64,000 nucleotides of DNA from an uncultured Pseudomonadales bacterium (lineage in GTDB: Bacteria; Pseudomonadota; Gammaproteobacteria; Pseudomonadales; Azotimanducaceae): positions 2,914,001 to 2,978,000 of the forward strand of contig OY282430.1 of NCBI GenBank assembly GCA_958296025.1, written 5' to 3'. This document shows, in pieces, positions 1-53,579 of this stretch. The stretch's first letter is position 1; each line of letters starts with the position of its first letter. Under the pieces are notes generated by a model that had not been told where the DNA came from, made no database searches, and worked only from the letters and a program-made list of their open reading frames with translations. The position numbers and the translations under genes are program-made.

Positions 1-3000
1 CCCGCCGCGAACGTCAGCGTCCCGCCCGCGACGGCCGAGTAGTCCGTCCCGGACGTGGCCGTGCCGGTCCCGGCGTCGGCGTAGGCCACCGTCACCCGCA
101 GCCCGCTCGCCGGGGACAGGGTGACCGTGAAGTCCAGGTCCGCCGTGTCGCCGGCGGCCCCCTCCGCGACGCTCGGCGAGCTGATCGAAACCGTCGACGC
201 CCCGTCGTCGTCCGTGATGGTCCCCGTGCCGGTCGCCGTGCCGAGCGTCGCGTTGTTCGGGGAGCTCAGGGTCAGCACGACGGTCTCGTCCTGCTCGTCC
301 GTCGCGTCGCCCGTCACCGACACCGTGACCGTCTTGCTGGTGTCCCCCGCCGCGAACGTCAGCGTGCCGCCGGTGATCGCCGTGTAGTCGGTCCCGGAAG
401 TGGCGGTGCCGCCAGTCCCCTCCGCCCAGTCCACCGTCACCTGCTTGCCGCTCGCCGCGCTCAGCGACGCCGTGAACGTCAGGGACGCCGTGCCGCCGGC
501 GGCCCCCTCCGCCACGTTCGGCGAGTTGATCGAAACCGTCGGCGCGTCGTCGTCGTCCGTGATGGTCCCCGTCCCGGTCGCCGCGCTCGACAGCGTCGCG
601 TTGTTCGGGGCGCTCAGGGTCACCAGGACGGTCTCGTCCGGCTCGTCCGTCGCGTCGCCCGTCACCGACACCGTGACGCTCTTCGACCTGTCCCCCGCCG
701 CGAACGTCAGGGTCCCGGCCGCGACGGCCGAGTAGTCCGTCCCGGACGTGGCCGTGCCGGTCCCGGCGTCGGCGTAGTTCACCGTCACCTGCTTGCCGCT
801 CGCCGCGCTCAGCGACGCCGTGAACGTCAGGGACGCCGTGTCGCCGCTGTTCCCCTCCGCGACGCTCGGCGAGTCGATCGAAACCGTCGGCGGGTCGTCG
901 TCGTCCGCGATGGTCAGCGCCACGCCGTCCGAGTCCTGGGCGATCCCCTGGGAGTTGGCCGCCACGCCCGTCACCGTCACCGCGCGGTCCGCCTCGTCCA
1001 GGCTGTTGTCCACCGCCGTGATCGTCACCGTCGAGCTCGACGTCGACCCCGCCGCCACCGTCAGCGTCGTCCCGCTCAGCGTCGTCCCCGCGGGCGGCGT
1101 CAGCGTCACCGTCGTCGCCGCGCTCGAGGGGTGGCTCAGCGACGCCGACACCGCGGTCGAGTTGCCGGACCCGCTCTCGTTGACGGAGGCCGCCGCCACC
1201 GCCAGCGTCACCGTCGGCGCGTCGTCGTCGTCCGTGACGGTCCCCGTGCCGGTCGCCGCGCTCGACGAGAGCGTCGCGTTGGTCGCGCCGCTCAGGGTCA
1301 GCACGACGGTCTCGTCCGGCTCGTCCGTCGCGTCGCCCGTCACCGACACCGTGACGGTCTTCGACGTCTCCCCCGCCGCGAACGTCAGCGTCCCGCCCGC
1401 GACGGCCGAGTAGTCCGTCCCGGACGTGGCCGTGCCGGTCCCGGCGTCGGCGTAGGCCACCGTCACCCGCAGCCCGCTCGCCGGGGACAGGGTGACCGTG
1501 AAGTCCAGGTCCGCCGTGTCGCCGGCGGCCCCCTCCGCGACGCTCGGCGAGCTGATCGAAACCGTCGACGCCCCGTCGTCGTCCGTGATGGTCCCCGTGC
1601 CGGTCGCCGTGCCGAGCGTCGCGTTGTTCGGGGAGCTCAGGGTCAGCACGACGGTCTCGTCCTGCTCGTCCGTCGCGTCGCCCGTCACCGACACCGTGAC
1701 CGTCTTGCTGGTGTCCCCCGCCGCGAACGTCAGCGTGCCGCCGGTGATCGCCGTGTAGTCGGTCCCGGAAGTGGCGGTGCCGCCAGTCCCCTCCGCCCAG
1801 TCCACCGTCACCTGCTTGCCGCTCGCCGCGCTCAGCGACGCCGTGAACGTCAGGGACGCCGTGCCGCCGGCGGCCCCCTCCGCCACGTTCGGCGAGTTGA
1901 TCGAAACCGTCGGCGCGTCGTCGTCGTCCGTGATGGTCCCCGTCCCGGTCGCCGCGCTCGACAGCGTCGCGTTGTTCGGGGCGCTCAGGGTCACCAGGAC
2001 GGTCTCGTCCGGCTCGTCCGTCGCGTCGCCCGTCACCGACACCGTGACGCTCTTCGACCTGTCCCCCGCCGCGAACGTCAGGGTCCCGGCCGCGACGGCC
2101 GAGTAGTCCGTCCCGGACGTGGCCGTGCCGGTCCCGGCGTCGGCGTAGTTCACCGTCACCTGCTTGCCGCTCGCCGCGCTCAGCGACGCCGTGAACGTCA
2201 GGGACGCCGTGTCGCCGCTGTTCCCCTCCGCGACGCTCGGCGAGTCGATCGAAACCGTCGGCGGGTCGTCGTCGTCCGCGATGGTCAGCGCCACGCCGTC
2301 CGAGTCCTGGGCGATCCCCTGGGAGTTGGCCGCCACGCCCGTCACCGTCACCGCGCGGTCCGCCTCGTCCAGGCTGTTGTCCACCGCCGTGATCGTCACC
2401 GTCGAGCTCGACGTCGACCCCGCCGCCACCGTCAGCGTCGTCCCGCTCAGCGTCGTCCCCGCGGGCGGCGTCAGCGTCACCGTCGTCGCCGCGCTCGAGG
2501 GGTGGCTCAGCGACGCCGACACCGCGGTCGAGTTGCCGGACCCGCTCTCGTTGACGGAGGCCGCCGCCACCGCCAGCGTCACCGTCGGCGCGTCGTCGTC
2601 GTCCGTGACGGTCCCCGTGCCGGTCGCCGCGCTCGACGAGAGCGTCGCGTTGGTCGCGCCGCTCAGGGTCAGCACGACGGTCTCGTCCGGCTCGTCCGTC
2701 GCGTCGCCCGTCACCGACACCGTGACGGTCTTCGACGTCTCCCCCGCCGCGAACGTCAGCGTCCCGCCCGCGACGGCCGAGTAGTCCGTCCCGGACGTGG
2801 CCGTGCCGGTCCCGGCGTCGGCGTAGGCCACCGTCACCCGCAGCCCGCTCGCCGGGGACAGGGTGACCGTGAAGTCCAGGTCCGCCGTGTCGCCGGCGGC
2901 CCCCTCCGCGACGCTCGGCGAGCTGATCGAAACCGTCGACGCCCCGTCGTCGTCCGTGATGGTCCCCGTGCCGGTCGCCGTGCCGAGCGTCGCGTTGTTC

Positions 3001-6000
3001 GGGGAGCTCAGGGTCAGCACGACGGTCTCGTCCTGCTCGTCCGTCGCGTCGCCCGTCACCGACACCGTGACCGTCTTGCTGGTGTCCCCCGCCGCGAACG
3101 TCAGCGTGCCGCCGGTGATCGCCGTGTAGTCGGTCCCGGAAGTGGCGGTGCCGCCAGTCCCCTCCGCCCAGTCCACCGTCACCTGCTTGCCGCTCGCCGC
3201 GCTCAGCGACGCCGTGAACGTCAGGGACGCCGTGCCGCTGTCCCCCTCCGCCACGTTCGGCGAGTTGATCGAAACCGTCGGCGCGTCGTCGTCGTCCGTG
3301 ATGGTCCCCGTCCCGGTCGCCGCGCTCGACAGCGTCGCGTTGTTCGGGGCGCTCAGGGTCACCAGGACGGTCTCGTCCGGCTCGTCCGTCGCGTCGCCCG
3401 TCACCGACACCGTGACGCTCTTCGACCTGTCCCCCGCCGCGAACGTCAGGGTCCCGGCCGCGACGGCCGAGTAGTCCGTCCCGGACGTGGCCGTGCCGGT
3501 CCCGGCGTCGGCGTAGTTCACCGTCACCTGCTTGCCGCTCGCCGCGCTCAGCGACGCCGTGAACGTCAGGGACGCCGTGTCGCCGCTGTTCCCCTCCGCG
3601 ACGCTCGGCGAGTCGATCGAAACCGTCGGCGGGTCGTCGTCGTCCGCGATGGTCAGCGCCACGCCGTCCGAGTCCTGGGCGATCCCCTGGGAGTTGGCCG
3701 CCACGCCCGTCACCGTCACCGCGCGGTCCGCCTCGTCCAGGCTGTTGTCCACCGCCGTGATCGTCACCGTCGAGCTCGACGTCGACCCCGCCGCCACCGT
3801 CAGCGTCGTCCCGCTCAGCGTCGTCCCCGCGGGCGGCGTCAGCGTCACCGTCGTCGCCGCGCTCGAGGGGTGGCTCAGCGACGCCGACACCGCGGTCGAG
3901 TTGCCGGACCCGCTCTCGTTGACGGAGGCCGCCGCCACCGCCAGCGTCACCGTCGGCGCGTCGTCGTCGTCCGTGACGGTCCCCGTGCCGGTCGCCGCGC
4001 TCGACGAGAGCGTCGCGTTGGTCGCGCCGCTCAGGGTCAGCACGACGGTCTCGTCCGGCTCGTCCGTCGCGTCGCCCGTCACCGACACCGTGACGGTCTT
4101 CGACGTCTCCCCCGCCGCGAACGTCAGCGTCCCGCCCGCGACGGCCGAGTAGTCCGTCCCGGACGTGGCCGTGCCGGTCCCGGCGTCGGCGTAGGCCACC
4201 GTCACCCGCAGCCCGCTCGCCGGGGACAGGGTGACCGTGAAGTCCAGGTCCGCCGTGTCGCCGGCGGCCCCCTCCGCGACGCTCGGCGAGCTGATCGAAA
4301 CCGTCGACGCCCCGTCGTCGTCCGTGATGGTCCCCGTGCCGGTCGCCGTGCCGAGCGTCGCGTTGTTCGGGGAGCTCAGGGTCAGCACGACGGTCTCGTC
4401 CTGCTCGTCCGTCGCGTCGCCCGTCACCGACACCGTGACCGTCTTGCTGGTGTCCCCCGCCGCGAACGTCAGCGTGCCGCCGGTGATCGCCGTGTAGTCG
4501 GTCCCGGAAGTGGCGGTGCCGCCAGTCCCCTCCGCCCAGTCCACCGTCACCTGCTTGCCGCTCGCCGCGCTCAGCGACGCCGTGAACGTCAGGGACGCCG
4601 TGCCGCCGGCGGCCCCCTCCGCCACGTTCGGCGAGTTGATCGAAACCGTCGGCGCGTCGTCGTCGTCCGTGATGGTCCCCGTCCCGGTCGCCGCGCTCGA
4701 CAGCGTCGCGTTGTTCGGGGCGCTCAGGGTCACCAGGACGGTCTCGTCCGGCTCGTCCGTCGCGTCGCCCGTCACCGACACCGTGACGCTCTTCGACCTG
4801 TCCCCCGCCGCGAACGTCAGGGTCCCGGCCGCGACGGCCGAGTAGTCCGTCCCGGACGTGGCCGTGCCGGTCCCGGCGTCGGCGTAGTTCACCGTCACCT
4901 GCTTGCCGCTCGCCGCGCTCAGCGACGCCGTGAACGTCAGGGACGCCGTGTCGCCGCTGTTCCCCTCCGCGACGCTCGGCGAGTCGATCGAAACCGTCGG
5001 CGGGTCGTCGTCGTCCGCGATGGTCAGCGCCACGCCGTCCGAGTCCTGGGCGATCCCCTGGGAGTTGGCCGCCACGCCCGTCACCGTCACCGCGCGGTCC
5101 GCCTCGTCCAGGCTGTTGTCCACCGCCGTGATCGTCACCGTCGAGCTCGACGTCGACCCCGCCGCCACCGTCAGCGTCGTCCCGCTCAGCGTCGTCCCCG
5201 CGGGCGGCGTCAGCGTCACCGTCGTCGCCGCGCTCGAGGGGTGGCTCAGCGACGCCGACACCGCGGTCGAGTTGCCGGACCCGCTCTCGTTGACGGAGGC
5301 CGCCGCCACCGCCAGCGTCACCGTCGGCGCGTCGTCGTCGTCCGTGACGGTCCCCGTGCCGGTCGCCGCGCTCGACGAGAGCGTCGCGTTGGTCGCGCCG
5401 CTCAGGGTCAGCACGACGGTCTCGTCCGGCTCGTCCGTCGCGTCGCCCGTCACCGACACCGTGACGGTCTTCGACGTCTCCCCCGCCGCGAACGTCAGCG
5501 TCCCGCCCGCGACGGCCGAGTAGTCCGTCCCGGACGTGGCCGTGCCGGTCCCGGCGTCGGCGTAGGCCACCGTCACCCGCAGCCCGCTCGCCGGGGACAG
5601 GGTGACCGTGAAGTCCAGGTCCGCCGTGTCGCCGGCGGCCCCCTCCGCGACGCTCGGCGAGCTGATCGAAACCGTCGACGCCCCGTCGTCGTCCGTGATG
5701 GTCCCCGTGCCGGTCGCCGTGCCGAGCGTCGCGTTGTTCGGGGAGCTCAGGGTCAGCACGACGGTCTCGTCCTGCTCGTCCGTCGCGTCGCCCGTCACCG
5801 ACACCGTGACCGTCTTGCTGGTGTCCCCCGCCGCGAACGTCAGCGTGCCGCCGGTGATCGCCGTGTAGTCGGTCCCGGAAGTGGCGGTGCCGCCAGTCCC
5901 CTCCGCCCAGTCCACCGTCACCTGCTTGCCGCTCGCCGCGCTCAGCGACGCCGTGAACGTCAGGGACGCCGTGCCGCTGTCCCCCTCCGCCACGTTCGGC

Positions 6001-9000
6001 GAGTTGATCGAAACCGTCGGCGCGTCGTCGTCGTCCGTGATGGTCCCCGTCCCGGTCGCCGCGCTCGACAGCGTCGCGTTGTTCGGGGCGCTCAGGGTCA
6101 CCAGGACGGTCTCGTCCGGCTCGTCCGTCGCGTCGCCCGTCACCGACACCGTGACGCTCTTCGACCTGTCCCCCGCCGCGAACGTCAGGGTCCCGGCCGC
6201 GACGGCCGAGTAGTCCGTCCCGGACGTGGCCGTGCCGGTCCCGGCGTCGGCGTAGTTCACCGTCACCTGCTTGCCGCTCGCCGCGCTCAGCGACGCCGTG
6301 AACGTCAGGGACGCCGTGTCGCCGCTGTTCCCCTCCGCGACGCTCGGCGAGTCGATCGAAACCGTCGGCGGGTCGTCGTCGTCCGCGATGGTCAGCGCCA
6401 CGCCGTCCGAGTCCTGGGCGATCCCCTGGGAGTTGGCCGCCACGCCCGTCACCGTCACCGCGCGGTCCGCCTCGTCCAGGCTGTTGTCCACCGCCGTGAT
6501 CGTCACCGTCGAGCTCGACGTCGACCCCGCCGCCACCGTCAGCGTCGTCCCGCTCAGCGTCGTCCCCGCGGGCGGCGTCAGCGTCACCGTCGTCGCCGCG
6601 CTCGAGGGGTGGCTCAGCGACGCCGACACCGCGGTCGAGTTGCCGGACCCGCTCTCGTTGACGGAGGCCGCCGCCACCGCCAGCGTCACCGTCGGCGCGT
6701 CGTCGTCGTCCGTGACGGTCCCCGTGCCGGTCGCCGCGCTCGACGAGAGCGTCGCGTTGGTCGCGCCGCTCAGGGTCAGCACGACGGTCTCGTCCGGCTC
6801 GTCCGTCGCGTCGCCCGTCACCGACACCGTGACGGTCTTCGACGTCTCCCCCGCCGCGAACGTCAGCGTCCCGCCCGCGACGGCCGAGTAGTCCGTCCCG
6901 GACGTGGCCGTGCCGGTCCCGGCGTCGGCGTAGGCCACCGTCACCCGCAGCCCGCTCGCCGGGGACAGGGTGACCGTGAAGTCCAGGTCCGCCGTGTCGC
7001 CGGCGGCCCCCTCCGCGACGCTCGGCGAGCTGATCGAAACCGTCGACGCCCCGTCGTCGTCCGTGATGGTCCCCGTGCCGGTCGCCGTGCCGAGCGTCGC
7101 GTTGTTCGGGGAGCTCAGGGTCAGCACGACGGTCTCGTCCTGCTCGTCCGTCGCGTCGCCCGTCACCGACACCGTGACCGTCTTGCTGGTGTCCCCCGCC
7201 GCGAACGTCAGCGTGCCGCCGGTGATCGCCGTGTAGTCGGTCCCGGAAGTGGCGGTGCCGCCAGTCCCCTCCGCCCAGTCCACCGTCACCTGCTTGCCGC
7301 TCGCCGCGCTCAGCGACGCCGTGAACGTCAGGGACGCCGTGCCGCCGGCGGCCCCCTCCGCCACGTTCGGCGAGTTGATCGAAACCGTCGGCGCGTCGTC
7401 GTCGTCCGTGATGGTCCCCGTCCCGGTCGCCGCGCTCGACAGCGTCGCGTTGTTCGGGGCGCTCAGGGTCACCAGGACGGTCTCGTCCGGCTCGTCCGTC
7501 GCGTCGCCCGTCACCGACACCGTGACGCTCTTCGACCTGTCCCCCGCCGCGAACGTCAGGGTCCCGGCCGCGACGGCCGAGTAGTCCGTCCCGGACGTGG
7601 CCGTGCCGGTCCCGGCGTCGGCGTAGTTCACCGTCACCTGCTTGCCGCTCGCCGCGCTCAGCGACGCCGTGAACGTCAGGGACGCCGTGTCGCCGCTGTT
7701 CCCCTCCGCGACGCTCGGCGAGTCGATCGAAACCGTCGGCGGGTCGTCGTCGTCCGCGATGGTCAGCGCCACGCCGTCCGAGTCCTGGGCGATCCCCTGG
7801 GAGTTGGCCGCCACGCCCGTCACCGTCACCGCGCGGTCCGCCTCGTCCAGGCTGTTGTCCACCGCCGTGATCGTCACCGTCGAGCTCGACGTCGACCCCG
7901 CCGCCACCGTCAGCGTCGTCCCGCTCAGCGTCGTCCCCGCGGGCGGCGTCAGCGTCACCGTCGTCGCCGCGCTCGAGGGGTGGCTCAGCGACGCCGACAC
8001 CGCGGTCGAGTTGCCGGACCCGCTCTCGTTGACGGAGGCCGCCGCCACCGCCAGCGTCACCGTCGGCGCGTCGTCGTCGTCCGTGACGGTCCCCGTGCCG
8101 GTCGCCGCGCTCGACGAGAGCGTCGCGTTGGTCGCGCCGCTCAGGGTCAGCACGACGGTCTCGTCCGGCTCGTCCGTCGCGTCGCCCGTCACCGACACCG
8201 TGACGGTCTTCGACGTCTCCCCCGCCGCGAACGTCAGCGTCCCGCCCGCGACGGCCGAGTAGTCCGTCCCGGACGTGGCCGTGCCGGTCCCGGCGTCGGC
8301 GTAGGCCACCGTCACCCGCAGCCCGCTCGCCGGGGACAGGGTGACCGTGAAGTCCAGGTCCGCCGTGTCGCCGGCGGCCCCCTCCGCGACGCTCGGCGAG
8401 CTGATCGAAACCGTCGACGCCCCGTCGTCGTCCGTGATGGTCCCCGTGCCGGTCGCCGTGCCGAGCGTCGCGTTGTTCGGGGAGCTCAGGGTCAGCACGA
8501 CGGTCTCGTCCTGCTCGTCCGTCGCGTCGCCCGTCACCGACACCGTGACCGTCTTGCTGGTGTCCCCCGCCGCGAACGTCAGCGTGCCGCCGGTGATCGC
8601 CGTGTAGTCGGTCCCGGAAGTGGCGGTGCCGCCAGTCCCCTCCGCCCAGTCCACCGTCACCTGCTTGCCGCTCGCCGCGCTCAGCGACGCCGTGAACGTC
8701 AGGGACGCCGTGCCGCTGTCCCCCTCCGCCACGTTCGGCGAGTTGATCGAAACCGTCGGCGCGTCGTCGTCGTCCGTGATGGTCCCCGTCCCGGTCGCCG
8801 CGCTCGACAGCGTCGCGTTGTTCGGGGCGCTCAGGGTCACCAGGACGGTCTCGTCCGGCTCGTCCGTCGCGTCGCCCGTCACCGACACCGTGACGCTCTT
8901 CGACCTGTCCCCCGCCGCGAACGTCAGGGTCCCGGCCGCGACGGCCGAGTAGTCCGTCCCGGACGTGGCCGTGCCGGTCCCGGCGTCGGCGTAGTTCACC

Positions 9001-12000
9001 GTCACCTGCTTGCCGCTCGCCGCGCTCAGCGACGCCGTGAACGTCAGGGACGCCGTGTCGCCGCTGTTCCCCTCCGCGACGCTCGGCGAGTCGATCGAAA
9101 CCGTCGGCGGGTCGTCGTCGTCCGCGATGGTCAGCGCCACGCCGTCCGAGTCCTGGGCGATCCCCTGGGAGTTGGCCGCCACGCCCGTCACCGTCACCGC
9201 GCGGTCCGCCTCGTCCAGGCTGTTGTCCACCGCCGTGATCGTCACCGTCGAGCTCGACGTCGACCCCGCCGCCACCGTCAGCGTCGTCCCGCTCAGCGTC
9301 GTCCCCGCGGGCGGCGTCAGCGTCACCGTCGTCGCCGCGCTCGAGGGGTGGCTCAGCGACGCCGACACCGCGGTCGAGTTGCCGGACCCGCTCTCGTTGA
9401 CGGAGGCCGCCGCCACCGCCAGCGTCACCGTCGGCGCGTCGTCGTCGTCCGTGACGGTCCCCGTGCCGGTCGCCGCGCTCGACGAGAGCGTCGCGTTGGT
9501 CGCGCCGCTCAGGGTCAGCACGACGGTCTCGTCCGGCTCGTCCGTCGCGTCGCCCGTCACCGACACCGTGACGGTCTTCGACGTCTCCCCCGCCGCGAAC
9601 GTCAGCGTCCCGCCCGCGACGGCCGAGTAGTCCGTCCCGGACGTGGCCGTGCCGGTCCCGGCGTCGGCGTAGGCCACCGTCACCCGCAGCCCGCTCGCCG
9701 GGGACAGGGTGACCGTGAAGTCCAGGTCCGCCGTGTCGCCGGCGGCCCCCTCCGCGACGCTCGGCGAGCTGATCGAAACCGTCGACGCCCCGTCGTCGTC
9801 CGTGATGGTCCCCGTGCCGGTCGCCGTGCCGAGCGTCGCGTTGTTCGGGGAGCTCAGGGTCAGCACGACGGTCTCGTCCTGCTCGTCCGTCGCGTCGCCC
9901 GTCACCGACACCGTGACCGTCTTGCTGGTGTCCCCCGCCGCGAACGTCAGCGTGCCGCCGGTGATCGCCGTGTAGTCGGTCCCGGAAGTGGCGGTGCCGC
10001 CAGTCCCCTCCGCCCAGTCCACCGTCACCTGCTTGCCGCTCGCCGCGCTCAGCGACGCCGTGAACGTCAGGGACGCCGTGCCGCTGTCCCCCTCCGCCAC
10101 GTTCGGCGAGTTGATCGAAACCGTCGGCGCGTCGTCGTCGTCCGTGATGGTCCCCGTCCCGGTCGCCGCGCTCGACAGCGTCGCGTTGTTCGGGGCGCTC
10201 AGGGTCACCAGGACGGTCTCGTCCGGCTCGTCCGTCGCGTCGCCCGTCACCGACACCGTGACGCTCTTCGACCTGTCCCCCGCCGCGAACGTCAGGGTCC
10301 CGGCCGCGACGGCCGAGTAGTCCGTCCCGGACGTGGCCGTGCCGGTCCCGGCGTCGGCGTAGTTCACCGTCACCTGCTTGCCGCTCGCCGCGCTCAGCGA
10401 CGCCGTGAACGTCAGGGACGCCGTGTCGCCGCTGTTCCCCTCCGCGACGCTCGGCGAGTCGATCGAAACCGTCGGCGGGTCGTCGTCGTCCGCGATGGTC
10501 AGCGCCACGCCGTCCGAGTCCTGGGCGATCCCCTGGGAGTTGGCCGCCACGCCCGTCACCGTCACCGCGCGGTCCGCCTCGTCCAGGCTGTTGTCCACCG
10601 CCGTGATCGTCACCGTCGAGCTCGACGTCGACCCCGCCGCCACCGTCAGCGTCGTCCCGCTCAGCGTCGTCCCCGCGGGCGGCGTCAGCGTCACCGTCGT
10701 CGCCGCGCTCGAGGGGTGGCTCAGCGACGCCGACACCGCGGTCGAGTTGCCGGACCCGCTCTCGTTGACGGAGGCCGCCGCCACCGCCAGCGTCACCGTC
10801 GGCGCGTCGTCGTCGTCCGTGACGGTCCCCGTGCCGGTCGCCGCGCTCGACGAGAGCGTCGCGTTGGTCGCGCCGCTCAGGGTCAGCACGACGGTCTCGT
10901 CCGGCTCGTCCGTCGCGTCGCCCGTCACCGACACCGTGACGGTCTTCGACGTCTCCCCCGCCGCGAACGTCAGCGTCCCGCCCGCGACGGCCGAGTAGTC
11001 CGTCCCGGACGTGGCCGTGCCGGTCCCGGCGTCGGCGTAGGCCACCGTCACCCGCAGCCCGCTCGCCGGGGACAGGGTGACCGTGAAGTCCAGGTCCGCC
11101 GTGTCGCCGGCGGCCCCCTCCGCGACGCTCGGCGAGCTGATCGAAACCGTCGACGCCCCGTCGTCGTCCGTGATGGTCCCCGTGCCGGTCGCCGTGCCGA
11201 GCGTCGCGTTGTTCGGGGAGCTCAGGGTCAGCACGACGGTCTCGTCCTGCTCGTCCGTCGCGTCGCCCGTCACCGACACCGTGACCGTCTTGCTGGTGTC
11301 CCCCGCCGCGAACGTCAGCGTGCCGCCGGTGATCGCCGTGTAGTCGGTCCCGGAAGTGGCGGTGCCGCCAGTCCCCTCCGCCCAGTCCACCGTCACCTGC
11401 TTGCCGCTCGCCGCGCTCAGCGACGCCGTGAACGTCAGGGACGCCGTGCCGCTGTCCCCCTCCGCCACGTTCGGCGAGTTGATCGAAACCGTCGGCGCGT
11501 CGTCGTCGTCCGTGATGGTCCCCGTCCCGGTCGCCGCGCTCGACAGCGTCGCGTTGTTCGGGGCGCTCAGGGTCACCAGGACGGTCTCGTCCGGCTCGTC
11601 CGTCGCGTCGCCCGTCACCGACACCGTGACGCTCTTCGACCTGTCCCCCGCCGCGAACGTCAGGGTCCCGGCCGCGACGGCCGAGTAGTCCGTCCCGGAC
11701 GTGGCCGTGCCGGTCCCGGCGTCGGCGTAGTTCACCGTCACCTGCTTGCCGCTCGCCGCGCTCAGCGACGCCGTGAACGTCAGGGACGCCGTGTCGCCGC
11801 TGTTCCCCTCCGCGACGCTCGGCGAGTCGATCGAAACCGTCGGCGGGTCGTCGTCGTCCGCGATGGTCAGCGCCACGCCGTCCGAGTCCTGGGCGATCCC
11901 CTGGGAGTTGGCCGCCACGCCCGTCACCGTCACCGCGCGGTCCGCCTCGTCCAGGCTGTTGTCCACCGCCGTGATCGTCACCGTCGAGCTCGACGTCGAC

Positions 12001-12190: not shown

Positions 12191-15100
12191 CGGTCCCCGT
12201 GCCGGTGCCCGCCGCGCTGGCCACGGCCGCGTTGTTCGGGGAGCTCAGGGCCAGCTTCACGGTCTCGTCCGGCTCGTCCGTCGCGTCGCCCGTCACCGAC
12301 ACCGTGACCGTCTTGCTGGTGTCCCCCGCCGCGAACGTCAGGGTCCCGTCCGCGACGGCCGCGTAGTCCGTCCCCGAGTCGGCCGTGCCCGTGCCCGCGT
12401 CCGCGTAGTTCACCGTCACCCGCAGCCCGCTCGCCGGGGACAGGGTGACCGTGAAGTCCAGGTCCGCCGTGTCGCCGTCGGCCCCCTCCGCGACGCTCGG
12501 CGAGTCGATCGACAGCGTCGACGGGTCGTCGTCGTCCGTGAGGCTGATCGTGGCCGAGTTCACCCTCAGGCCGCTCGACGCGCCGCTCACCGTGATCGTC
12601 TCGTCCGTCTCGTCCAACGCGTCGGCTGTCGGCGTCAGCGTGAAGGTTCCCACGCCGTTCATCGCTCCGGCGACGATCGTGACGTCGAACGCCGTCACCA
12701 GCGCGAAGTCCACCGCCCCCGCCGCGCCGCTCCCCGACACGCTCACCCGCACCATCGTGGTCTCGGCGAGCGGTGTCGTCCCGTTCAACGTCGCCGTCAC
12801 CGTGATCAGCGTCGCCCCGTCGCCCTCGCCCACCGCGTCGTCGTCCACCGTCAGCGTGAGCGAGGTCGGGACGCCGTCGTCGTCCGTCAGGCTGATCGTG
12901 GCCGAGTTCACCGGCAGGACGCCCGACGCGCCGCTCACCCTGATCGTCTCGTCCGCCTCGTCCGCCGCGTCGGCCGTCGGCGTCAGCGTGAAGGTTCCCG
13001 CCCCGCTCATCGCCCCCGCGGGGATCGCAATGTCGAAGTCCGCCACCGACGCGAAGTCCACCGCCTCCGTCATGCCGCTCCCCGCGACGCTCACGCGGAC
13101 GGTCTTGGGCTGGGCGAACCCCGTCGCGCCGTTCACCGCGGCGGTCACCGTGATCGTGGTGGCCCCGTCACCTTCGCCTACGTCGTCGTCGTCCACCGTC
13201 AGCGTGAACGAGGTCGGCGTCCCGTCGTCATCCGTCAGGTTGAGCGTGGCCGGGTTCACCGTCAGGTCGCCCGACGCGCCGCTCACCGTGATCGTCTCGT
13301 CGGTCTCGTCCACCGCGTCGTCCGTCGGGGTCAGCGTGAAGGTTCCTATCCCGCTCGCCGCGCCGGCGTCGATCGTGATGTCGAACGCCGTCACCGGCGC
13401 GAAGTCCACCGCCGTCGCCGTCCCGCTGCCCAACACGCTCACCCGAACCGTCTTGGCCTCGGCGAACCGCGTCGCGCCGTCCACCACGGCCGTCACCGTG
13501 ATCGTGGTCGGCCCGTCGCCTTCGCCCACGCCGTCGTCGTCCACCGTCAGCGTCACCATCGGCGCATCGTCGTCGGTGATCGTCAGCGTCACACTGGGGG
13601 GCTGCGTCACCCCCGCGCTGTTCGATGCCGAGCCGGACACGGTGACGCTCTTGTCTAGTTCGTCGAGGGCGTTGTTCACGGCGGCGATGGTCACCGTGCC
13701 GGTGCTCGTCGTGTTCCCCGCGGCGATCGTCAGCGTCTTCGCCGTGCTTAGGGTGAAGTCTGAAGAGTCCGCGTCCGTGCCCGCAACCGCCGACACCGTG
13801 ATCGTGGTGACCGCGGTCGAAGCCTGGTCCAGCGTCGCCGTCACCGTGGCCATTCCGCCGTTCTCCGGAATCGAGGATGGCGACAGCGAAAGCGATACGG
13901 CCGGCCTATCGTCGTCGATGACCGTGACGGTGACCGCCGTCTGATTTTCACTGGCCGCCACGTTCGCGCCTGGGTAGCCGACCACCACAACTTTGATGTG
14001 CTTGGTCTCGTCTTGGAGGTCGTCGTCAGCAAGGGCCTCGACGGTTATCGTACGCAGCCTGTCCCAGTCTGACGCCGTGAACGACTCGTTATGTGGGGGG
14101 GTGGGGTCACTGGCTACGAGAAGCCCGGATTCGGGGGTTAAACCGACCCAAGCCACCCCGGGGGGCGCGGAGTCCAGCTCCACGGTAAACGACTTGCTGG
14201 GACCTTGCTCAGTCACGGTCAGGGTAGTGGGGCTGAAGGTCACGCCCGGGGTCTCTTCGGTGTCGTCATCGTTCACCGTAGCGGTGAGGCTCGCCGTGAC
14301 GCCCGTGTACTCGCTCGCGGTGGCGGTGCTGGCGGTGTGGGTGAGGACCACGGACTCGTGCGCGGTGTTCCTGTCGTCGGCCGCCCGCGCGGTGACGGTC
14401 TGCGCCGTCTCCCAGGTGGTGGAGGTGAAGGCGAGGGTGTTCTGCACGCCGTTCGTGTTGTCGCCGTCGGTGTCGTCGATGGACACGGCGCCGGCGTCGG
14501 CGCTGGTCAGCGTCACCGTCACGGTTTGGGTCGGCTTCGCCGCCAGCCGCACCGAGTAGGTCTTGGCCGCGTTCGAGGCGTGGCCCTCGGTCAGCGTCAG
14601 CGGGCCGGCTTCGTCCACGTTGGCCGTGGATGGGTTTGCGTCGATCACCACCGCCGGGGTCTCGTCGTCGTCCACCGCCACGGACAGGCTGCCGATGGCG
14701 AGGCCGGCGGGGTAGCCGGCGCCGGCGCAGGCCGTGCTGACGCTGTGGCTCAGGATGGCCGCGTCGTCCGCCCCGTCGTCGTCCTGGGCGGCGGTGACCG
14801 TCACCGTCTGCGCCGTGCTCCAGTTGCTCGCGGTGAACGTCAGCGCGGACGGCGAAACGGCCACGTCCGCGTTGCTGCTGGCGACGGCGACGCCGACGCC
14901 GCCGGCGCAGCCCGTCGGCGGGCTGTCCGGCGCGACGGTGTACGTGCCCCGGTTGGCGTTGGTCGCGCCCGGGTGCTCGTCCAGCGACAGGCTGGTCTTG
15001 CTGACCGTCACCCCCGGGTTGGCGGCGACCGTGACCGCGTTCGAGGTGAGCGCGCCGGCGCCCTGGTGGCTGGCGGCGGGCACGCGCACCGCCAGGGTGG

Positions 15101-18100
15101 GCAGGCCGCGGAAGTCGCCCGCGAAGGCCAAGCTTATGGTGGCCCTCGCGGTGCCGGCAGCGACGCCGGAGACCCGCGAGATGGTGAGGTTCGGGATGGC
15201 GCTCACCAGCTCGAACGCGCCGACGCCGGCGGCACCGGCAGAGAAGGTGGTGTTGGTGAGCAACAGCGCGAGGGTGGCGCCGTCCAGGTTCGCCTCGGTC
15301 AGGGTCGCCGGGGTGGGCACGATGACGACACCCACGGTGGCGATACCCGAGGAGCCGTCCACCTTGTGGTTCGTGGCGTTCAAGATCGCGTTCGCCCCCA
15401 GCCCCAGGCTGGCACTCGTTCCGGCGCGGCTTTGGATTGCCCCCCCGCTCAGCCCCAGCGCTCTAGCCCCGACGCTGATGCCGTCGGTGTCGTAGTCCGT
15501 CACCTTCACTACGTAGCGGAAGGTCAAGACCCGGGTTCCGCCGCCGGCCACATAGGCGGCAGGTTCGGAGTGTGATCCGATCCCCAGCGCCAGCCGCGGC
15601 GTCCCCGTCACGTTCACGGGGATGTTGAACCCGACCTCCACCTCGATCCGCTCGCCCGCGCCGTAGATGTCGCCGCTCGCCGGAGTGCTGGCCAACTTGA
15701 CCGCGTTCACCGACGGGGCCGGGGCCGTCGAGCCGTCCACTTTGTGGCCCGTGCTGTTCGAGACCGCGTGGCCGCCCAGGGCCAGCAGCGCGTTCGTCCC
15801 GGCCGCGCTCCGGATCGTCCCGCCGTTCAGCGACAGGGCGTTGCCGCCGACGCTGATGCCGTTGGCGTCCCGGTCGGCCGACTGCACTACGTAGTGGAAC
15901 GTCAGCGTCTTCGTGCCGCTGCCGCTGGCGTGCGCGGCTTGGCGGGTCTGCGCCCCGACCGTCAGCGTCAGACGCGGCGTCCCCGTCACCGTAACCGGAA
16001 TCTGGAACTCCACCTCCACCTCGATCCGCTCGCCCGCGCCGTAGGTGTCGCCGCTCGCCGGAGTGCTGGCCAACTTGACCGCGTTCACCGACGGGGCCGC
16101 CGGCCTGCCGTCCACTTTGTGGCCCGTGCTGTTCGAGACCGCGTGGACGCCCAGGGCCAGCAGCGCGTTCGTCCGGGCCGCGCTCCGGATCGTCCCGCCG
16201 TTCAGCGACAGGGCGTTGCCGCCGATGCCGATGCCGTTGGCGTCCCGGTCGACCGACTGCACTACGTAGCGGAACGTCAGCGTCTTCGTGCCGCTGCCGC
16301 TGGCGTGCGCGGCTTGGCGGGTCTGCGCCCCGACCGTCAGCGCCAGCCGCGGCGTCCCCGTCACGTTCACGGGGATGTTGAACCCGACCTCCACCTCGAT
16401 CCGCTCGCCCGCGCCGTAGGTGTCGTCGCTCGCCGGAGTGCTGGCCAACTTGACCGCGTTCACCGACGGGGCCGGGGCCGTCGAGCCGTTCACTCTGTGG
16501 CCCGTGCTGTTCGAGATCGCGTGGACGCCCAGGGCCAGCAGCGCGTTCGTCCCGGCCGCGCTCCGGATCGTCCCGCCGTTCAGCGACAGGGCGTTGCCGC
16601 CGACGCTGATGCCGTTGGCGTCCCGGTCGGCCGACTGCACTACGTAGTGGAACGTCAGCGTCTTCGTGCCGCTGCCGCTGGCGTGCGCGGCTTGGTGGGT
16701 CTGCGCCCCGACCGTCAGCGCCAGACGCGGCGTCCCCGTCACCGTAACCGGAATCTGGAACTCCACCTCCGCCTCGATCCGCTCGCCCGCGCCGTAGGTG
16801 TCGCCGCTCGCCGGAGTGCTGGCCAACTTGACCGCGTTCACCGACGGGGCCGGGGCCGTCGAGCCGTCAACCTTGTGGTCGCTGGAGTTCCCGAACGCCC
16901 AGATGCCCAGCGCCAGCAGCGCGTTCGTCCCGGCCGCGCTCCGGATCGTCCCGCCGTTCAGCGACAGGGCGTTGCCGCCGATGCTGATGCCGTTGGCGTC
17001 CCGGTCGGCCGGCTGCACTACGTAGTGGAACGTCAGCTTCTTCGTGCCGCTGCCGCTGGCGTGCGCGGCTTGGCGGGTCTGCGCCCCGACCGTCAGCGCC
17101 AGACGCGGCGTCCCCGTCACCGTAACCGGAATCTGGAACTCCACCTCCACCTCGATCCGCTCGCCCGCGCCGTAGGTGTCGCCGCTCGCCGGTGAGCTCG
17201 CTATCGACAAATCGGCCACCGCCGGCGCGGTCGCGGGTCCGTTCACCTTGTGGTTGCCGTCGTTGGCAATCACATGGCTGCCCCCGAGCGCCAACGCCGC
17301 ATTGGTCCCGGCCGAGCTCCGGATCGTCCCGCCGTTCAGCGACAGTGCGCCGGCCTCGATGCTGATGCCGTCGGCATCCACGTCCGAGGACTGGACGTAG
17401 TAGTCGAACGTCAGAGTCTTCAGGCCTCTGCGACTTGCCGCTAAGCTTTGCTGTACAAGGTGGTGATAGGGGAAGACGCTGGGGGAATCAGGCAAATAGG
17501 CCATTTGGCGCGTATGCGCCCCGATCCGCAGCGCCAGCTGCGGTGTCCCCCCCACGTTCACGGGGATGTTGAACCCGACCTCCACCTCGATCCGCTCGCC
17601 CGCGCCGTAGGTGTCGCCGCTCGCCGGAGTGCTGGCCAACTTGACCGCGTTCACCGACGGGGCCGGGGCCGTCGAGCCGTTCACTTTGTGGCCCGTGCTG
17701 TTCGAGATCGCGTGGCCGCCCAGGGCCCGCAGCGCGTTCGTCCCGGCCGCGCTCCGGATCGTCCCGCCGTTCAGCGACAGGGCGTTGCCGCCAATGCTGA
17801 TGCCGTTGGCGTCCCGGTCGGCCGACTGCACTACGTAGCGGAACGTCAGCGTCTTCGTGCCGCTGCCGCTGACGTGCGCGGCTTGGCGGGTCTGCGCCCC
17901 GACCGTCAGCGCCAGACGCGGCGTCCTTGTCACCGTAACCGGAATCTGGAACCCCACCTCCACCTCGATCCGCTCGCCCGCGCCGTAGGTGTCGCCGCTC
18001 GCCGGAGTGCTGGCCACCGACAACCCGACCACCGCCGGCGCGGTCGCGGGTCCGTTCACCTTGTGGTTGCCGTTGTTGGTAATCACATGGCTGGCAAGCG

Positions 18101-21100
18101 CCAGCGACGCCGTCAGCCCCACGCCGGTCTGGATCGTACCTCCGTCGAGCGACAGTGCATTCGCCCCGATGCTGATCCCGTTGTCGTCGGAGTCCGTGGC
18201 CGCCACCGTGTAGGTGAACGTCAGAGCGTTCGTCCCGCTGCCGCCCGCGTACGCCGCCTGCCGCACTCTGGCGCCGATGCCCAGCCAAAGCCGCGGCGTC
18301 CCCGTCACCGTCACGCCCACCTGGTAGCCGACCCGCACCGATATCGCCTCGCCCGCCCCGTAGGTGTCGCCGCTGGCTGGGCTGCTTGCGATCGTCACCC
18401 CCGTCACCGTCGCTGCCGTAGTCAAACCGCCGTTCACCTTGTGGCCGGACGCATCGCCGATGGCATGACGGCCCAACGCCAGCGCAGCGTTCGCGCCGAG
18501 ATTGCTCCGGATCGTTCCGCCGGCGAGCGACAAGGCGCTCGCGCCCACACCGACTCCGTTCGTGTCTCTGTCCAGAAAATGCACGTAGTACGAGAAGGTA
18601 AGCGTCTTCGTGCCACTTCCGCCCAAATACGCCGCTTGCCGGGTTCCGCCGCCGATGGACAGCGCCAGACGCGGCGTACCCGTCACGGTCACCGGAAGGT
18701 CGAACACGACGCCCACGTCGATCCGCTCGTCGGCCCCGTAGATGTCGCCGGCGGCCGGCGAGCTGGTCAGGCTCGCGCCGGTCACCGACGGGGCCGTCGT
18801 CGTGCTCCCGTTCACCTTATGGCCGCTCGAGTTCGTGACGGCGTGGCTGCCCAACGTCAGCAACGCGTTGGTTCCCGCCCCGCTCTGGATCGTGCCGCTA
18901 TTCAGCGACAGCGCACTCGTCCCGACGGTGATCCCGTTCAAATCCGAGTCCGCGGCCTGCACCAAATAGTGGAAGGTCAGGGTGTTGGTCCCGCTCCCGT
19001 GGGCGTACACCGCCTGCTTGGTGGAACTTCCGATCCCCAGCGCCACATAAGGCGCGCCCGTCACCGTCACGGGAATCTGGAAGCCGACCCGCACTTCGAT
19101 CGTCTCGCCCGCCCCGTAGGTGTTCCCGCTCAACGGGCCGGCGGCGAAGTTCAGTGTGTTTACCGCCGGCGCGGTCGCGGGTCCGTTCACCTTATGACCG
19201 GTGACGTTCGTCAGCGCCAAGCCGCTGAGATCGAGGGGAGAGTCGCCGACCCTGTCGTATATGCGTCCGCCGTTCAGCGACAGGGCGTTGCCGCCGATGC
19301 TGATGCCGTTGGCGTCCAAATCAACAGCCTGCACCCTGTACCTGAAACTCGCTTGGTAGGGCCCCCTGGTGAAGAAGTTGGCCTGTCTGGTGGCGTTGCC
19401 GATCGTCAGCGCGAGCTGTGGCGTTCCCGCCACCGTGATCCTCGAACCGAAGATTACATCCGCCACGATCACCTCGCCGGCTGCGTAGGTGCTTCCGCTG
19501 GCAGGCCTACTTGCGATTCGTAGGGTGGTGGGGCCGGTGGGGCTAGTTAATCCATACACCTTGTGGGCCGTTGCGTTATCGATGGCGTGGCTGCCTAGCG
19601 CCAACGCCGCGTTGATCCCGGTCGCGCTCTGAATCGTGCCGCTGTTCAGCGTCAGGGCGTTGCCGCCGATGCTGATGCCGTTGGCGTCCGTGTCGGTTGA
19701 CTGCACGGAGTATTTGAACGTCAGGGTTCTCGTTCCGCTGCCGCCGGCGTACGCCGCCTGGCGGGTCGAGCTCCCGATCGTCAGCGCCAGCCGCGGTGCG
19801 CCCGTGACCGTCACGGCGATCTGGAAACCGACGTCCACCGAGATAACTGCTTGCCTTGGGTATTCAATACCCCTCGAATCGGAGATGATCGAAACCGAGT
19901 TCACGACCGGAACTGTCCTCGTTCCGTTCACCTTGTGACCGCTGGAGTTGGTGATGGTGTGGGTACCCAGATTCAAGTTCGCGTCCGTTCCCGTGTTACT
20001 CTGGATCCCGCCACCGTTCAGGGACAGCGCCGCCGCGCCGATGCTGATGCCGTTCGCGTCCTGGTCGGTGGCCAGCGTTTCATAGCGGAACGTCAAGGTT
20101 CGGGTCCCGCTCCCGCTAGCGTAGTCCGCCTGCGCCGCGCCGGAACCGATCCCCAGCGCCAGCCGCGGCGCCCCTCTCACGTCCACCGCGATGTCGAAAC
20201 CGATCTGCGCCTCGATCCGCTCGCCCGCGCCGTAGGTGGCACCGCTGGCAGGAGTGCTAGCCAACGTGACCGCGCACACCGACGGGGTAGTCGGGGTGCT
20301 TCCGTCCACCTTGTGACCATCCGAGTTCGAGATCACGTAATTGCCCAATGCCAGCGCAGCGTTCACGCCCACCGCGCTTTGGATCGTCCCCCCGTTCAAG
20401 GACAGCGCCGACACGCCGACGCTGATACCGTCAGAGTCCTGGTCGGGCGCCAGCACCACATAACCGAAGACGAGGGTCTTGGTGCCGCTGCCGCTCAGGT
20501 AGGCCGCCTGGCGCAACCCCGAGCCGACCCCCAGCGCCAACCGCGGTGTGCCGGTCACCCTTACGGGCATGTTGAACCCAACCTCGACCTCGATCCGCTC
20601 GCTCGCGCCGTACATGCCGGCACTGACGGGAGTGTTCAACGTGAGTGCGCTCACCTCCGGGACGGGCGCGGTGCTTCCATTCACCCTGTGGCTCCCCTCG
20701 TCCCTCAAGGCGCGGCTGCCCAAGTCCAGCCGCGCGGCAGCCCCGAGCCTGCCAGCGACGACGCCGCCGTTCAGGGTCAAGGCGTTCGCCGCTACGCTGA
20801 TCCCGTTCGCGTCCATGTCGGCGCTTTGCACTGTGTAGCCGAAGACGAGGGTCTTGGTGCCGCTGCCGCTCAGGTAGGCCGCCTGGCGCGTCCGTGCCCC
20901 GACCCCCAGCGCCAGCTGCGGCGTCCCCGTCACGTCCACGGCGATGTCGAAGCCGATCTGCGCCTCGATCCGCTCGCCCGCACCGTAGGTATTGCCGCTC
21001 GCAGGAGTGCTGACCAACGTGACCGCGTTCACCGACGGGGCCATGATCGTGCTCCCGTCCACTCTGGCATACCGAAAATTCGATATCGCGTATGTGCCCA

Positions 21101-24100
21101 GCGCCAGCGCCGCGTTCGCGCCCGCCGCGCTTTGGATCGCCCCCCCGTTAAGCGACAGGGCGGCACCCCCAATGCTGATGCCGTCCGTGTCCCTATCCGC
21201 CGACTGCACCACATACTCGAACGTGAGCGACTGTGTGCCACTGCCGCCAACGTACGCCGCCTGGCGGGTCGAGCCCCCAATCGCCAGCGCCAGCTGCGGC
21301 GAGCCCGTCACCGTCACCGGGACGTCGAATCGCACCTGCACCGAGATCGTTGCGCCGGCGCCGAAGATTTCGGTGGACGACGACCCAAACCTCACCCTGT
21401 TAACAGCCGGCGGCACCTTGGGACACCTCCCCGCAACAACCCTGTAGGAGGACGAGGTATCATTCAATACGCCCAATCGGGACTGATTGGTCGAAGAGTC
21501 CACGCAGACCGACGAGCCCGTGTAATCAGAGTTCTCGTAAAGGATGGTGTGAACCCCGGAACCCACGGAAACCGCCGAAATCGTGTTGTTGTGCGTGGCA
21601 CCAAACGAAGATCTCCAAACACCCACGCAGACGCGGAACCCGGCCCAGTCGGCATGTTCAAAGTAGCAGGCTTGGTTGGCGGGCGCCGGATTGGCCGGCG
21701 CGGCCGGGCAACTCCCCGCAAGTACCTTGAAGGAAGACGCGGCGTCATTCAATACGCCCAATTGGGACTGATTGGTCGAAGAGTCCACGCAGACCGACGA
21801 GCCCGTGTAATCAGAGTTCTCGTAAAGGATGGTGCGAACCCCGGAACCCACGGAAACCGCCGAAACCTTGTTGTTGTGGAAAGCGCCGAACGAAGACGTA
21901 CTTACGTTCGAGCAGGCGCGGAACCCGGTCCAGTCGGCATGTTCAAAGTAGCAGGCTTGGTTGGCGGGCGCCGGATTGGCCGGCGCGGCCGGGCAACTCC
22001 CCGCAAGTATCTTGAAGGAAGACGCGGCGTCATTCAATACGCCCAATTGGGACTGATTGGTCGAAGAGTCCACGCAGACCGACGAGCCCGTGTAACCAGA
22101 GTTCTCGTAAAGGATGGTGTGAACCCCCGAACCGACAGCGACTGCAGAAACCTTGTTGTTGTGCGTGGTGCCGAACGAAGACGAATATACGCCCGCGCAG
22201 GTGCGGAACCCGGTCCAGTCGGCACCTTCAAAGTAGCAGGCTTGGTTGGCGGGCGCCGGATAAACAATATAACCATCGAGTAGGACAGGTCCGCCGGACC
22301 TTTTCACTCCTCTCAACCGATGCTGGGAATTAGATAAGCCCCTTTTGCTATAGACAATTTTCTGCGGCTCCTTCCCATTGGCACCCCGCATTGATACTAT
22401 GGTATCAGTAACTCCGTCAATTTGTATCTCAAGGTCGCCGAATGTACGGAAATTTTCAGATATCAAATCAATTCCAGTGCCCGTAAACGTAATGTCAAAA
22501 TATTTCCCACTGCCACTCGTATAATGAACGTCCCCGTTCAATTTAGTGAATTTCGAAGTATCTGGGCTATCGATCCACCCTGAACTATATACAACGGATT
22601 CATCGTCGTTATACCTAATGCCATTCCCGTCCGGCTCCGCCCACCGAACATCAAAACTTGGTTGATCGGGTAAATCGATTGCGGAGGCGTTGCTAGCAAC
22701 CAGCAGCAACAACTCACGAATCTCTCTATAATACTGCAAATCCCTTGTGTAAGTATAATAATTGCTAATCACCCTGTCCGCGAGATCTTGAGCTAAGGAT
22801 GGGTTCCTTCGTTTCACTATTTGCAAAAGCTCCCAATTCTCCAAACCGTCACGAGTCGCCTCATGACGCAAGGATGAACGAAGGCCCTTGTTTTTTCGGT
22901 CCGGGTATGTTATTTGGCTGCCGCCGTCAGTTACATTACCATAGGACCATAGATTCAACGCCCAGTTCAAATATCCGTCAAGGTCTTCCTTAAAACTATA
23001 CCAGTAAGTTAAGTCATTGGTGATTAGGTGGTTATCTAGCATTCTATTCAATCCGGGCGGCGTCGGGACGCCAACCATGTACAAAAAGATTTGGTCACCT
23101 TGTGCTTTCTGCCCAGTGTAAAAACTTTTATAGTTGTGGTATGTCTGAACAAGCGGCACCCATATTGACACCCTATCATGAACTTGCTGAAAAATTGTGC
23201 TGTTCGCGGCGTCCAAGTATTTCATGCCAGGCGCCTTAGCTACGAGCTTCGCCTGCAAGTATCGCCAATAGTTTATGTTTCCAGGCTCGTCGAATATATG
23301 TTGATACCAGTCGTTAAACCAACCCTTACTTTCAAGATGGCTTTTGAGGGCCGGCAGGAATAGATCGAACCATTTTCCCACCTCCCGCTTCTCCGCGCTT
23401 CTACTTTCATCCGCAATGGAAGTAGGTATCAGGCCGCCTGCGAGAATGGTTTCACCTCGGGCATTGCGGGCAAGCCTAACGACATGACTCCCTTCGTTAA
23501 CACTGCCCAAAACACCCGCCCAATGGTTAGCTAAATGCCCGCCGGCAAACTTGGTGATTCCCTTATCCCTATGTGTTTCGATAAATTTGTCGAACTTTGA
23601 CCAATTCCAAGTGATGGTTCCGTTAGAGTTGATGGTAGTGCCACCATCCTTAAGCAAGTTGACCGTCCATACAGTAGCCATATTCTGTCGGTGTTCAACC
23701 ATGGTTTCGGCAAAATTTCCAATCATTTGCCACCAGTCACCCGTATATTTTGTTAGGCCATAATAATTTTTTCCCAAGTCCGCCCTATCTCCCTCAATTC
23801 CGAAGCTATTTGTTTCAGTCCAAATATATTGAAGAAATGTACTGTCTTCCGTATCCGGAATCACAACATCATGTACTTTGATGCTGATGGAGAATGTTTT
23901 CTGGCCGGCCGTTGTATTGACAGTCATGGTGCCCACGTATGTGTCGCCCGCCGCCGTCTTTGGCACATAAATATTGACAAAAATTGGCTGTGCATGGTTA
24001 GCTGGAACATACATGCTTGTTGCATTTGAGAATGGGTCGGGAACAATGGAACTTGGGTAAATGTGATCTGGATTTACCCCCCAATTTACCAACGGTCTAC

Positions 24101-24656
24101 TTGGTGGAGTGAGATCTTCATATTGGACGAAGTAGTGCTTTATATTCTCCGATAAAATGGTATTCGTGGGTGATGATGTGCCGACCAAATTGGTAAACGT
24201 CACGGAGGTGATTGTAAAAGCACTGTCGCTATACAGCACTGCCTGACCATTTTCATAGTCGTTTTTTGCTGCCGACAAGGACAAGACAGTACGATTAACA
24301 CCTACACTTTGCGCTTCTTGATATCTATGAACTCTATATAGCGAATCTTCAACCCATGCTTCTAACGAATAGCCGTCTATAGAGCTACGGCTGCTCTCCA
24401 GCGTACCCGTAGCACTGGCCGGAACCATCTGGTGAGTGCCGGCATCGGTTCGCCGCTCCCTACTAATGGGGAAGGACACCTCTACAGCGTTGCCCTTCCC
24501 TATATCTCCGGCCGAGGCTTGAGGAGTAACCGAGACACTTTCCGCGGCGGCCGCATCAGGGAGTATAGCAGCGGCAATCAGCAGGCCCAAGCAATAAAGC
24601 GCTCGCTTGGCGTACCCCGAAACCGAGAGGGAGAATTTAGAATTCCTACCCTTCAT
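1..24656 (-). CDS. Giant secreted DUF4091 (GH123-like) multidomain protein, C-terminus beyond the window
   Basis: The reading frame opens with ATG at 24656, overlapping the upstream TGA as ATGA, and stays open to base 1, so at least 8,218 codons. Codon phase at the start and at base 1 agrees, and I checked by hand that the DUF4091 head has no stop. Residues 1-40 are a signal peptide ending near DAAAA. Residues about 45-665 resemble DUF4091, a family related to GH123 N-acetyl-galactosaminidases, with the expected acidic pair D456-E457 in IFDEPG. Residues about 667-800 look like a carbohydrate-binding beta-sandwich. Then follow three crystallin-like repeats, 16 SwmB-like repeats, unique Calx-beta-like domains, and a near-identical tandem Calx-beta array. 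I infer an exported, surface-displayed glycan-acting enzyme on a very long stalk. Substrate and anchor are not visible. Base composition changes sharply near 22.26 kb, from AT-rich head to GC-rich stalk. Confidence 0.88.
12190..15345 (-). repeat. Unique Calx-beta-like and related domains of the giant protein
   Basis: This part of the giant gene lies between the SwmB-like array and the identical tandem array. It codes for diverged Calx-beta-like domains, recognisable from repeated motifs such as [22 protein letters not shown] and SLTDDDG at about 110-residue spacing. At about 15,010-15,330 is one copy of a domain starting [12 protein letters not shown], which recurs twice in the 2,411-codon protein at 43916-51151. 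Unlike the array to the left, these domains are not near-identical at the DNA level. Confidence 0.75.
15345..21415 (-). repeat. Sixteen tandem SwmB-like domains of about 126 residues
   Basis: On the minus strand I count 16 consecutive copies of a domain with the pattern [20 protein letters not shown], then [28 protein letters not shown] and a closing GHKVNG. The usual period is 375-378 bp. One copy, around 17,170-17,610, is 57 bp longer because of a 19-residue insertion near [15 protein letters not shown]. Copies closest to the tandem Calx-beta array (15.5-17.2 kb) are most alike, and those near 19-21 kb are most diverged. The motif recalls repeats seen in large surface proteins of marine and sponge-associated bacteria. 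That family assignment is from memory. Confidence 0.85.
21420..22245 (-). repeat. Three beta/gamma-crystallin or I36-like repeats, 285-bp period
   Basis: Three copies of a 95-residue segment in the giant protein are spaced exactly 285 bp apart (the marker tcaaagtagcagg starts near 22229, 21944 and 21659). Each has the pattern [15 protein letters not shown], then [33 protein letters not shown] and a closing AGSCP. Aromatic and Gly-rich strands with paired cysteines fit the beta/gamma-crystallin fold or the related peptidase inhibitor I36 family. They sit between the catalytic head with its sugar-binding-like module and the stalk. Calcium binding or inhibitor activity cannot be decided from sequence alone. 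Confidence 0.75.
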
Positions 24657-28094: not shown

Positions 28095-28105
28095 GCCAAC
28101 CCCCT

Positions 28106-30889: not shown

Positions 30890-30892
30890 CAA

Positions 30893-31877: not shown

Positions 31878-31982
31878 CAGCGAAAAAGCCCACAGCGCAA
31901 CTCCCTCACCTTAAAATCGCCCTGACCTTCAGCGGATTGGGTGTTATGCTTGCCAAAGGCATTCACTCCCAGCTCGAGCCAT

Positions 31983-35466: not shown

Positions 35467-36467
<1,001 letters not shown>

Positions 36468-36468
<1 letters not shown>

Positions 36469-37493: not shown

Positions 37494-37539
37494 TGCGCAT
37501 GCTCCTTAGTTCATTCACGCTGATGAGCCGAACCGAGCC

Positions 37540-51621: not shown

Positions 51622-53579
<1,958 letters not shown>

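Follow-up and report, generated by a model that had tools for sequence, protein, structure and literature searches.

Results

Gene content of the locus

The window, by which we mean the whole stretch of 64,000 nucleotides analysed here (G000:C1:2914001-2978000), belongs to a host genome assembled as one contig of 3,915,453 bases and 96.7% complete. It contains a giant-protein frame on the minus strand (3..24656, with its ATG at 24656), which has no stop up to the window edge and encodes 8,218 aa inside the window. A preliminary description of this DNA had reported an open frame of at least 8,218 codons from this ATG. We confirm this frame and find that, followed past base 1, it reaches its first stop at C1:2903158, giving a protein of 11,832 aa, 1.16 MDa and pI 4.05. 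A stop or frameshift between 12 and 22 kb was looked for and is absent in the present assembly. We considered and rejected a chance open frame, given the coherent domains, the signal-like N-terminus, a GC3 along the stalk of 0.84-0.99 and the six native relatives of the C terminus. Opposite the stalk there is an antisense frame of 4,551 aa (3..13658, plus strand), which is probably a by-product of the stalk GC3 near 0.99.

Within the first 1,000 residues of the giant, Pfam places GH123_N_2 (residues 112-247), GH123_cat (297-613) and, near 890-978, matches of the I36/crystallin kind; its last 1,612 residues have Calx-beta and LRR_8 matches and a weaker Big_2 match. In residues 1001-4000 it reports only PDE12-like_N, above the cut-off, and fn3_6, below it, both of which we take as spurious.

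The three genes upstream overlap or nearly adjoin one another and the giant; at either end of this group the overlap is 4 bases, and the ATG of the giant overlaps the stop of the adjoining GH116 gene (Table 1). Both GH116 proteins have the GH116 N-terminal and DUF608 domains above the Pfam cut-off, and the PDB chain closest to one of them is 8IC6 (E 4.8e-74). The low-GC block is flanked by the native stalk on one side and by sequence repeated elsewhere in the genome on the other.

Elsewhere in the window, on the minus strand, are a large protein of 2,411 aa with PKD/K319L-like and REJ matches (43916-51151) and sugar-acid and central-carbon genes (34050-40559 and 52380-55772), namely 2-keto-3-deoxygalactonokinase, two GAPDH-like genes, PEP carboxylase, galactarate/altronate dehydratase and an aldo-keto reductase. 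A 505-aa frame on the plus strand (57525-59042) combines a match to a biotin carboxylase N-domain with one to a NYN domain, an odd pairing.

Table 1. Features of the giant frame and of the genes upstream of it, in window positions
Feature	Position	Strand	Basis or remark
Probable transposase remnant	31362..31900	-	DDE match below cut-off; 10 further DNA matches in genome
GH116 (DUF608) protein, 928 aa, GC3 0.46	28106..30892	-	Pfam; RR-type signal by reading
RbsD/FucU-like protein, 199 aa, GC3 0.45	27510..28109	-	Weak match below cut-off; signal-like start by reading
GH116 (DUF608) protein, 945 aa, GC3 0.45	24653..27490	-	Pfam
Signal-peptide-like N-terminus of giant, residues 1-38	24543..24656	-	By reading, hydrophobic stretch
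Linker, residues 39-96	24369..24542	-	Alignment; no counterpart in Colwellia enzyme
GH123-type head, residues 97-660, GC3 0.49	22677..24368	-	Pfam, alignment
D456-E457 pair	23286..23291	-	Verified; aligned with DE of 8K2J
Beta-sandwich after barrel, residues 661-798, GC3 0.44	22263..22676	-	Model of moderate quality, CBM35/CE2-N-like
Proposed fusion junction, codons 799-800	22257..22262	-	Homology end and GC3 change-point
Three beta/gamma-crystallin-like repeats, residues 801-1085, GC3 0.70-0.74	21402..22256	-	Pfam, tandem repeat
Sixteen stalk repeats of ~126 aa, residues ~1083-3097, one interrupted	15366..21410	-	Repeat analysis
Diverged Calx-beta superunit 15, 79% identical to others	11746..13116	-	Unit comparison
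Array of 14 near-identical Calx-beta superunits, window part	1..11745	-	Continues to C1:2906579

The GH123-type head

The preliminary description had assigned the giant a signal peptide and a DUF4091/GH123-like head with a D456-E457 pair, in agreement with our results. The start is signal-like by reading, PF13320 (GH123_cat) scores 108.7 bits (cut-off 23.1) and GH123_N_2 scores 47.2 bits (cut-off 27), and the pair is intact. In the PDB the closest structure, at E 4e-42, is 8K2J, whose entry names an oligosaccharide/monosaccharide-releasing beta-N-acetylgalactosaminidase; judging from this name and the accessible sections of PMC11087588, it is probably the Group 3 enzyme NgaDssm. In those sections, the DE motif is reported in 94% of 734 DUF4091 sequences, catalysis is substrate-assisted, and further residues conserved among the characterised enzymes are D95, W115, Y392, G427, W431, Y466 and R478 in NgaLy numbering (Sumida et al., 2024). 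In the alignment of the head, Y, G, W, Y and R columns are invariant, and their spacing fits the last five of these seven residues, spacing being the basis of the pairing.

In a tree of 36 rows, the window head and the head of a Colwellia protein are sisters with support of 100/99, within a clade of Bacillota, Actinomycetota and Colwellia rows; of two long-branch rows, one (L070) is the next neighbour of this pair. A grouping of the head with 8K2J, its best PDB match, was rejected, as the tree places the head in another clade. Because the head stands apart from 8K2J, and the tree took in no Group 4 enzymes characterised from Bacillota and Actinomycetota, its GalNAc specificity is a guess, with beta-N-acetylgalactosaminidase as the likeliest candidate activity.

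The beta-sandwich said to follow the head is likewise found. Its predicted model (pLDDT 66, moderate) resembles CE2 N-terminal and CBM35 domains, Pfam reports CE2_N below the cut-off, and its sequence finds one match in the PDB, at chance level.

Distribution of the head and of its neighbours

The head is absent from the 205 other genomes of the family, except for weak partial matches in one (G039), and from all 397 other genomes of the phylum sample. No match in viral contigs was confirmed, and 14 plasmid records reached a top identity of 26%, none with 80% coverage. A search of genome contigs with the head alone as query gave no confirmed match. A search of GTDB genomes with alignment A1 gave at least 451 confirmed relatives, of which the best 80 were kept, with flanks of up to 10 kb. 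Among the matches listed, the closest relative is the Colwellia MAG protein, 41-50% identical to the head. Its gene lies beside a GH29 fucosidase, a TonB receptor and a kelch (NanM-like) protein (L067:8467-15203; names by reading). In agreement with the earlier remark that DUF4091 proteins are usually far shorter, open frames containing the GH123 domain reach at most 1,929 aa, with a median of 575, among these best 80 of at least 451 loci. Titles and abstract openings in the literature, with subscription journals and preprints mostly outside the coverage, revealed no GH123/DUF4091 head on a giant stalk that we could recognise.

GH116 is near GH123 in one of the 80 loci (L099; best 80 of at least 451). 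Any GH116 match occurs in three of the six GH123-bearing genomes tried, with none in the Colwellia genome, and a conserved GH116-GH123 system was rejected as a rule on these counts. The search for a donor with the complete gene set found none, and a GH116 search of 37 other relatives gave one weak match. The operon had been put forward as the best candidate here for an undescribed system, a very long extracellular stalk carrying a glycan-acting head. Its components stand, as a predicted glycan-acting head, a long exported-looking stalk and two GH116 proteins as glycosidase-like neighbours. As a unit, however, the system is unsupported, because head and stalk appear to differ in origin and GH116 is rarely near GH123 among the 80 loci kept.

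The junction between head and stalk

The alignment to the Colwellia protein starts at residue 97 of the giant (Colwellia 29), and its second piece ends at residue 798 (Colwellia 960). The first BLAST alignment ran past 798 to 975, with poor identity, across the crystallin part, and we take this stretch as chance. Within codons 1-1085, the best GC3 break is at codon 799, where GC3 rises from 0.49 to 0.72, with a log-likelihood gain of 23.9; none of 200 permutations exceeds 9.9. The end of homology and the GC3 break are two independent measures and fall at the same codon. The head GC3 of 0.44-0.49 is close to that of the three upstream genes (0.45-0.46); GC3 is 0.70-0.99 downstream in the giant frame, and six further genes measured in the window have values of 0.70-0.88. 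Head and stalk thus appear, from composition and homology, to differ in origin and to meet at one codon. The first 89 codons of the giant have a GC3 of 0.62 versus 0.48; a native origin of the signal peptide and linker is not supported, as 52 of 200 permutations match this contrast.

Repeats of the stalk

The stalk begins with the crystallin-like repeats that had already been noted. In this part (residues ~800-1000), Inhibitor_I36 and Crystall_3 are above the Pfam cut-off and Crystall just under it, and the DNA forms a 285-bp tandem repeat of 2.9 copies. Its GC3 is intermediate, and 37 other relatives yield one weak match.

Next come the sixteen repeats of about 126 aa. Their number agrees with the preliminary description, but the name SwmB-like given to them is unsupported, since the repeats scanned have no match in Pfam (one repeat, to E 5) or NCBIfam (8 of the 16, to E 10). 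A profile of eight repeats finds one PDB match, at chance level, and the predicted model of the repeat (pLDDT 52) is too poor to suggest a fold.

The Calx-beta array, also described before, is borne out by PF03160, for which 45 of the 69 rows of the genome lie within the giant frame, 44 of them above the cut-off. All fifteen units are 1,368 or 1,371 bp long; units 1-14 are 99.8-100% identical and together span about 19 kb. Nine of the 14 are of one type and five of another, the difference being a 3-base indel and two adjacent substitutions; the order of the types shows no period, and a single unit carries an additional substitution. Repeated 100-mers make up 55% of the window giant versus at most 4% in its six sister giants, and with one superunit instead of 14 the giant would have about 5,900 aa, near the sizes of these paralogues. 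The array may reflect recent expansion or a fault in the assembly. Among the seven giants, 14 near-identical units occur only in the window copy, so that its exact length hangs on the assembly.

A C-terminal module shared by seven giants

The last 500 aa of the giant have 48 matches in their own genome, many of them short LRR matches, and six other giant frames share the last ~500 aa at 84-90% identity. From stop to stop, these sisters measure 4,209, 3,747, 4,877, 3,778, 5,007 and 5,070 aa; three of them (L029-L031, 3,778-5,007 aa) form a tandem trio at C1:2316220-2362861 and have long identical stretches in common. Pfam finds LRR_8 near the C terminus in all six, Calx-beta above the cut-off in four and a catalytic family in none. 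All seven giants end in WRL(Q/E)WMRTL, and the WRLxWM DNA pattern occurs at nine places in the genome (the seven giants and two stray ones) and at none in the reversed control. One stray copy of the tail (C1:3086809-3087129) is a 118-aa frame 83% identical to the tails of the giants; the other is a lone WRLxWM match below giant G (C1:2101080-2101097). Judged by this family of tails, the stalk is native, one of seven giants.

The module has matches in 15 of 58 genomes (own included) at E 0.001, many of them covering just its LRR or Ig portion. A genome of the same genus, G005, matches it at about 80% identity over most of its length and has another match at 54-64%, and G004 has one match at 41%. 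One frame with the module in G005 is 8,001 aa long, and another, of 927 aa, contains little beyond signal, repeat and module.

GGxGxD repeats near the C terminus are a feature of RTX/type I-secreted giant adhesins, and an LPxTG motif is a feature of sortase-anchored surface proteins. The entire giant protein contains no GGxGxD repeats and no LPxTG motif, and no hydrophobic C terminus is seen. We found no description of the Ig/LRR/WRLxWM module in the literature searched.

Discussion

Proposed origin and function of the chimera

We consider it probable that a laterally acquired GH123 enzyme was fused in frame to a native giant surface-protein gene, which would place a glycosidase at the extracellular tip. 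In this model, a low-GC operon, GH116 - RbsD-like - GH116 - GH123, would have been acquired laterally, as proposed from the head GC3 close to that of the upstream genes, the near-absence of the head in relatives and the probable transposase remnant upstream. The last gene of the operon would have encoded a complete exported GH123-type enzyme with a signal peptide, a catalytic barrel and one CBM-like beta-sandwich, and loss of its stop would have joined it in frame to the resident giant gene. The chimera would then be exported via Sec and held at the cell surface by its C-terminal Ig/LRR/WRLxWM module, with the Calx-beta stalk displaying the head at the far N-terminal tip. There, a DE-pair, substrate-assisted glycosidase, most likely a beta-N-acetylgalactosaminidase, may trim GalNAc-bearing glycans extracellularly.

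The low-GC block could instead be misjoined or the array length wrong, the real arrangement being a separate enzyme and stalk or a much shorter fusion. The host genome is a single contig, 96.7% complete, assembling units as alike as the fourteen over about 19 kb is difficult, and no other giant of the genome has a comparable array. We nevertheless regard such an artefact as unlikely, since the junction is in frame and at the natural end of the enzyme, the low-GC block sits between the native stalk and sequence repeated in the same genome, and a simple assembler loop would not yield two unit types in an order without a period.

If the fusion is real, its head might still be a passenger or a mere glycan-binding tip on an adhesin like the six sisters, which have no Pfam catalytic domain. 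The CBM-like domain after the barrel would suit such a role, and the activity of the head is a prediction, but the head frame is open, the DE pair is intact and so are the columns matched by spacing to other conserved residues, which makes this reading quite improbable. Vertical inheritance of an old enzyme-stalk gene, with loss in relatives and another cause for the odd codon usage of the head, would accommodate the intermediate GC3 of the crystallin part and the 41-50% identity to the nearest relative known among the matches listed, but is very unlikely given the sharp change-point at the homology border, the shared composition of the upstream genes and the lack of the head in the rest of the family's genomes, apart from weak matches in one.

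If lateral acquisition and fusion are correct, the junction shows how a megadalton surface protein gains a catalytic head; two independent signals place it at one codon, and six sister genes lacking such a head persist in the genome. The Ig/LRR/WRLxWM module would be a candidate for the signal by which giants lacking RTX repeats are sorted or anchored, and with the near-identical 14-unit array populations could be followed for changes in the length of the stalk. A broader proposal, which we put forward tentatively and consider doubtful, is that the genus has a display platform of giant stalks with a shared C-terminal export/anchor module, N-terminal tips that can be swapped even for enzymes acquired laterally, and lengths that shift through rapid gain and loss of identical Calx-beta units. 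The window gene would then be this platform caught after taking up a foreign glycosidase, with an enzyme arm of about 0.3 micrometre, estimated at about 4 nm per domain.

Comparison with known systems

The window head shares the catalytic profile and the DE pair, and columns that fit other conserved residues by spacing, with GH123/DUF4091 beta-N-acetylgalactosaminidases such as 8K2J, as far as the accessible sections describe these enzymes (PMC11087588). The GH123-type PDB chains matched are 516-610 aa long, whereas the window domain tops an 11,832-aa protein and falls in a clade other than that of 8K2J. The free-standing Colwellia GH123 protein (961 aa; from a deep-sea-trap MAG, by its title) aligns along its length with the head and beta-sandwich, but has three beta-sandwich repeats and lacks the crystallin, Calx-beta and LRR stalk of the giant. 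The upstream proteins share the GH116 N-terminal and DUF608 domains with GH116 enzymes (8IC6, exo-beta-D-arabinofuranosidase). Elsewhere GH116 usually does not adjoin GH123 (1 of the best 80 of at least 451 loci), whereas here it does. Giant bacterial surface proteins and adhesins, in the parts of the reports available to us, are likewise very long, repetitive and exported-looking, with Ig-like and Calx-beta repeats (PMC11573180, PMC12863079, PMC8092209); the window giant differs by its catalytic N-terminal head of foreign composition, and no RTX motif was found in it. Known parts are here in a new combination, and the architecture is real and uncommon.
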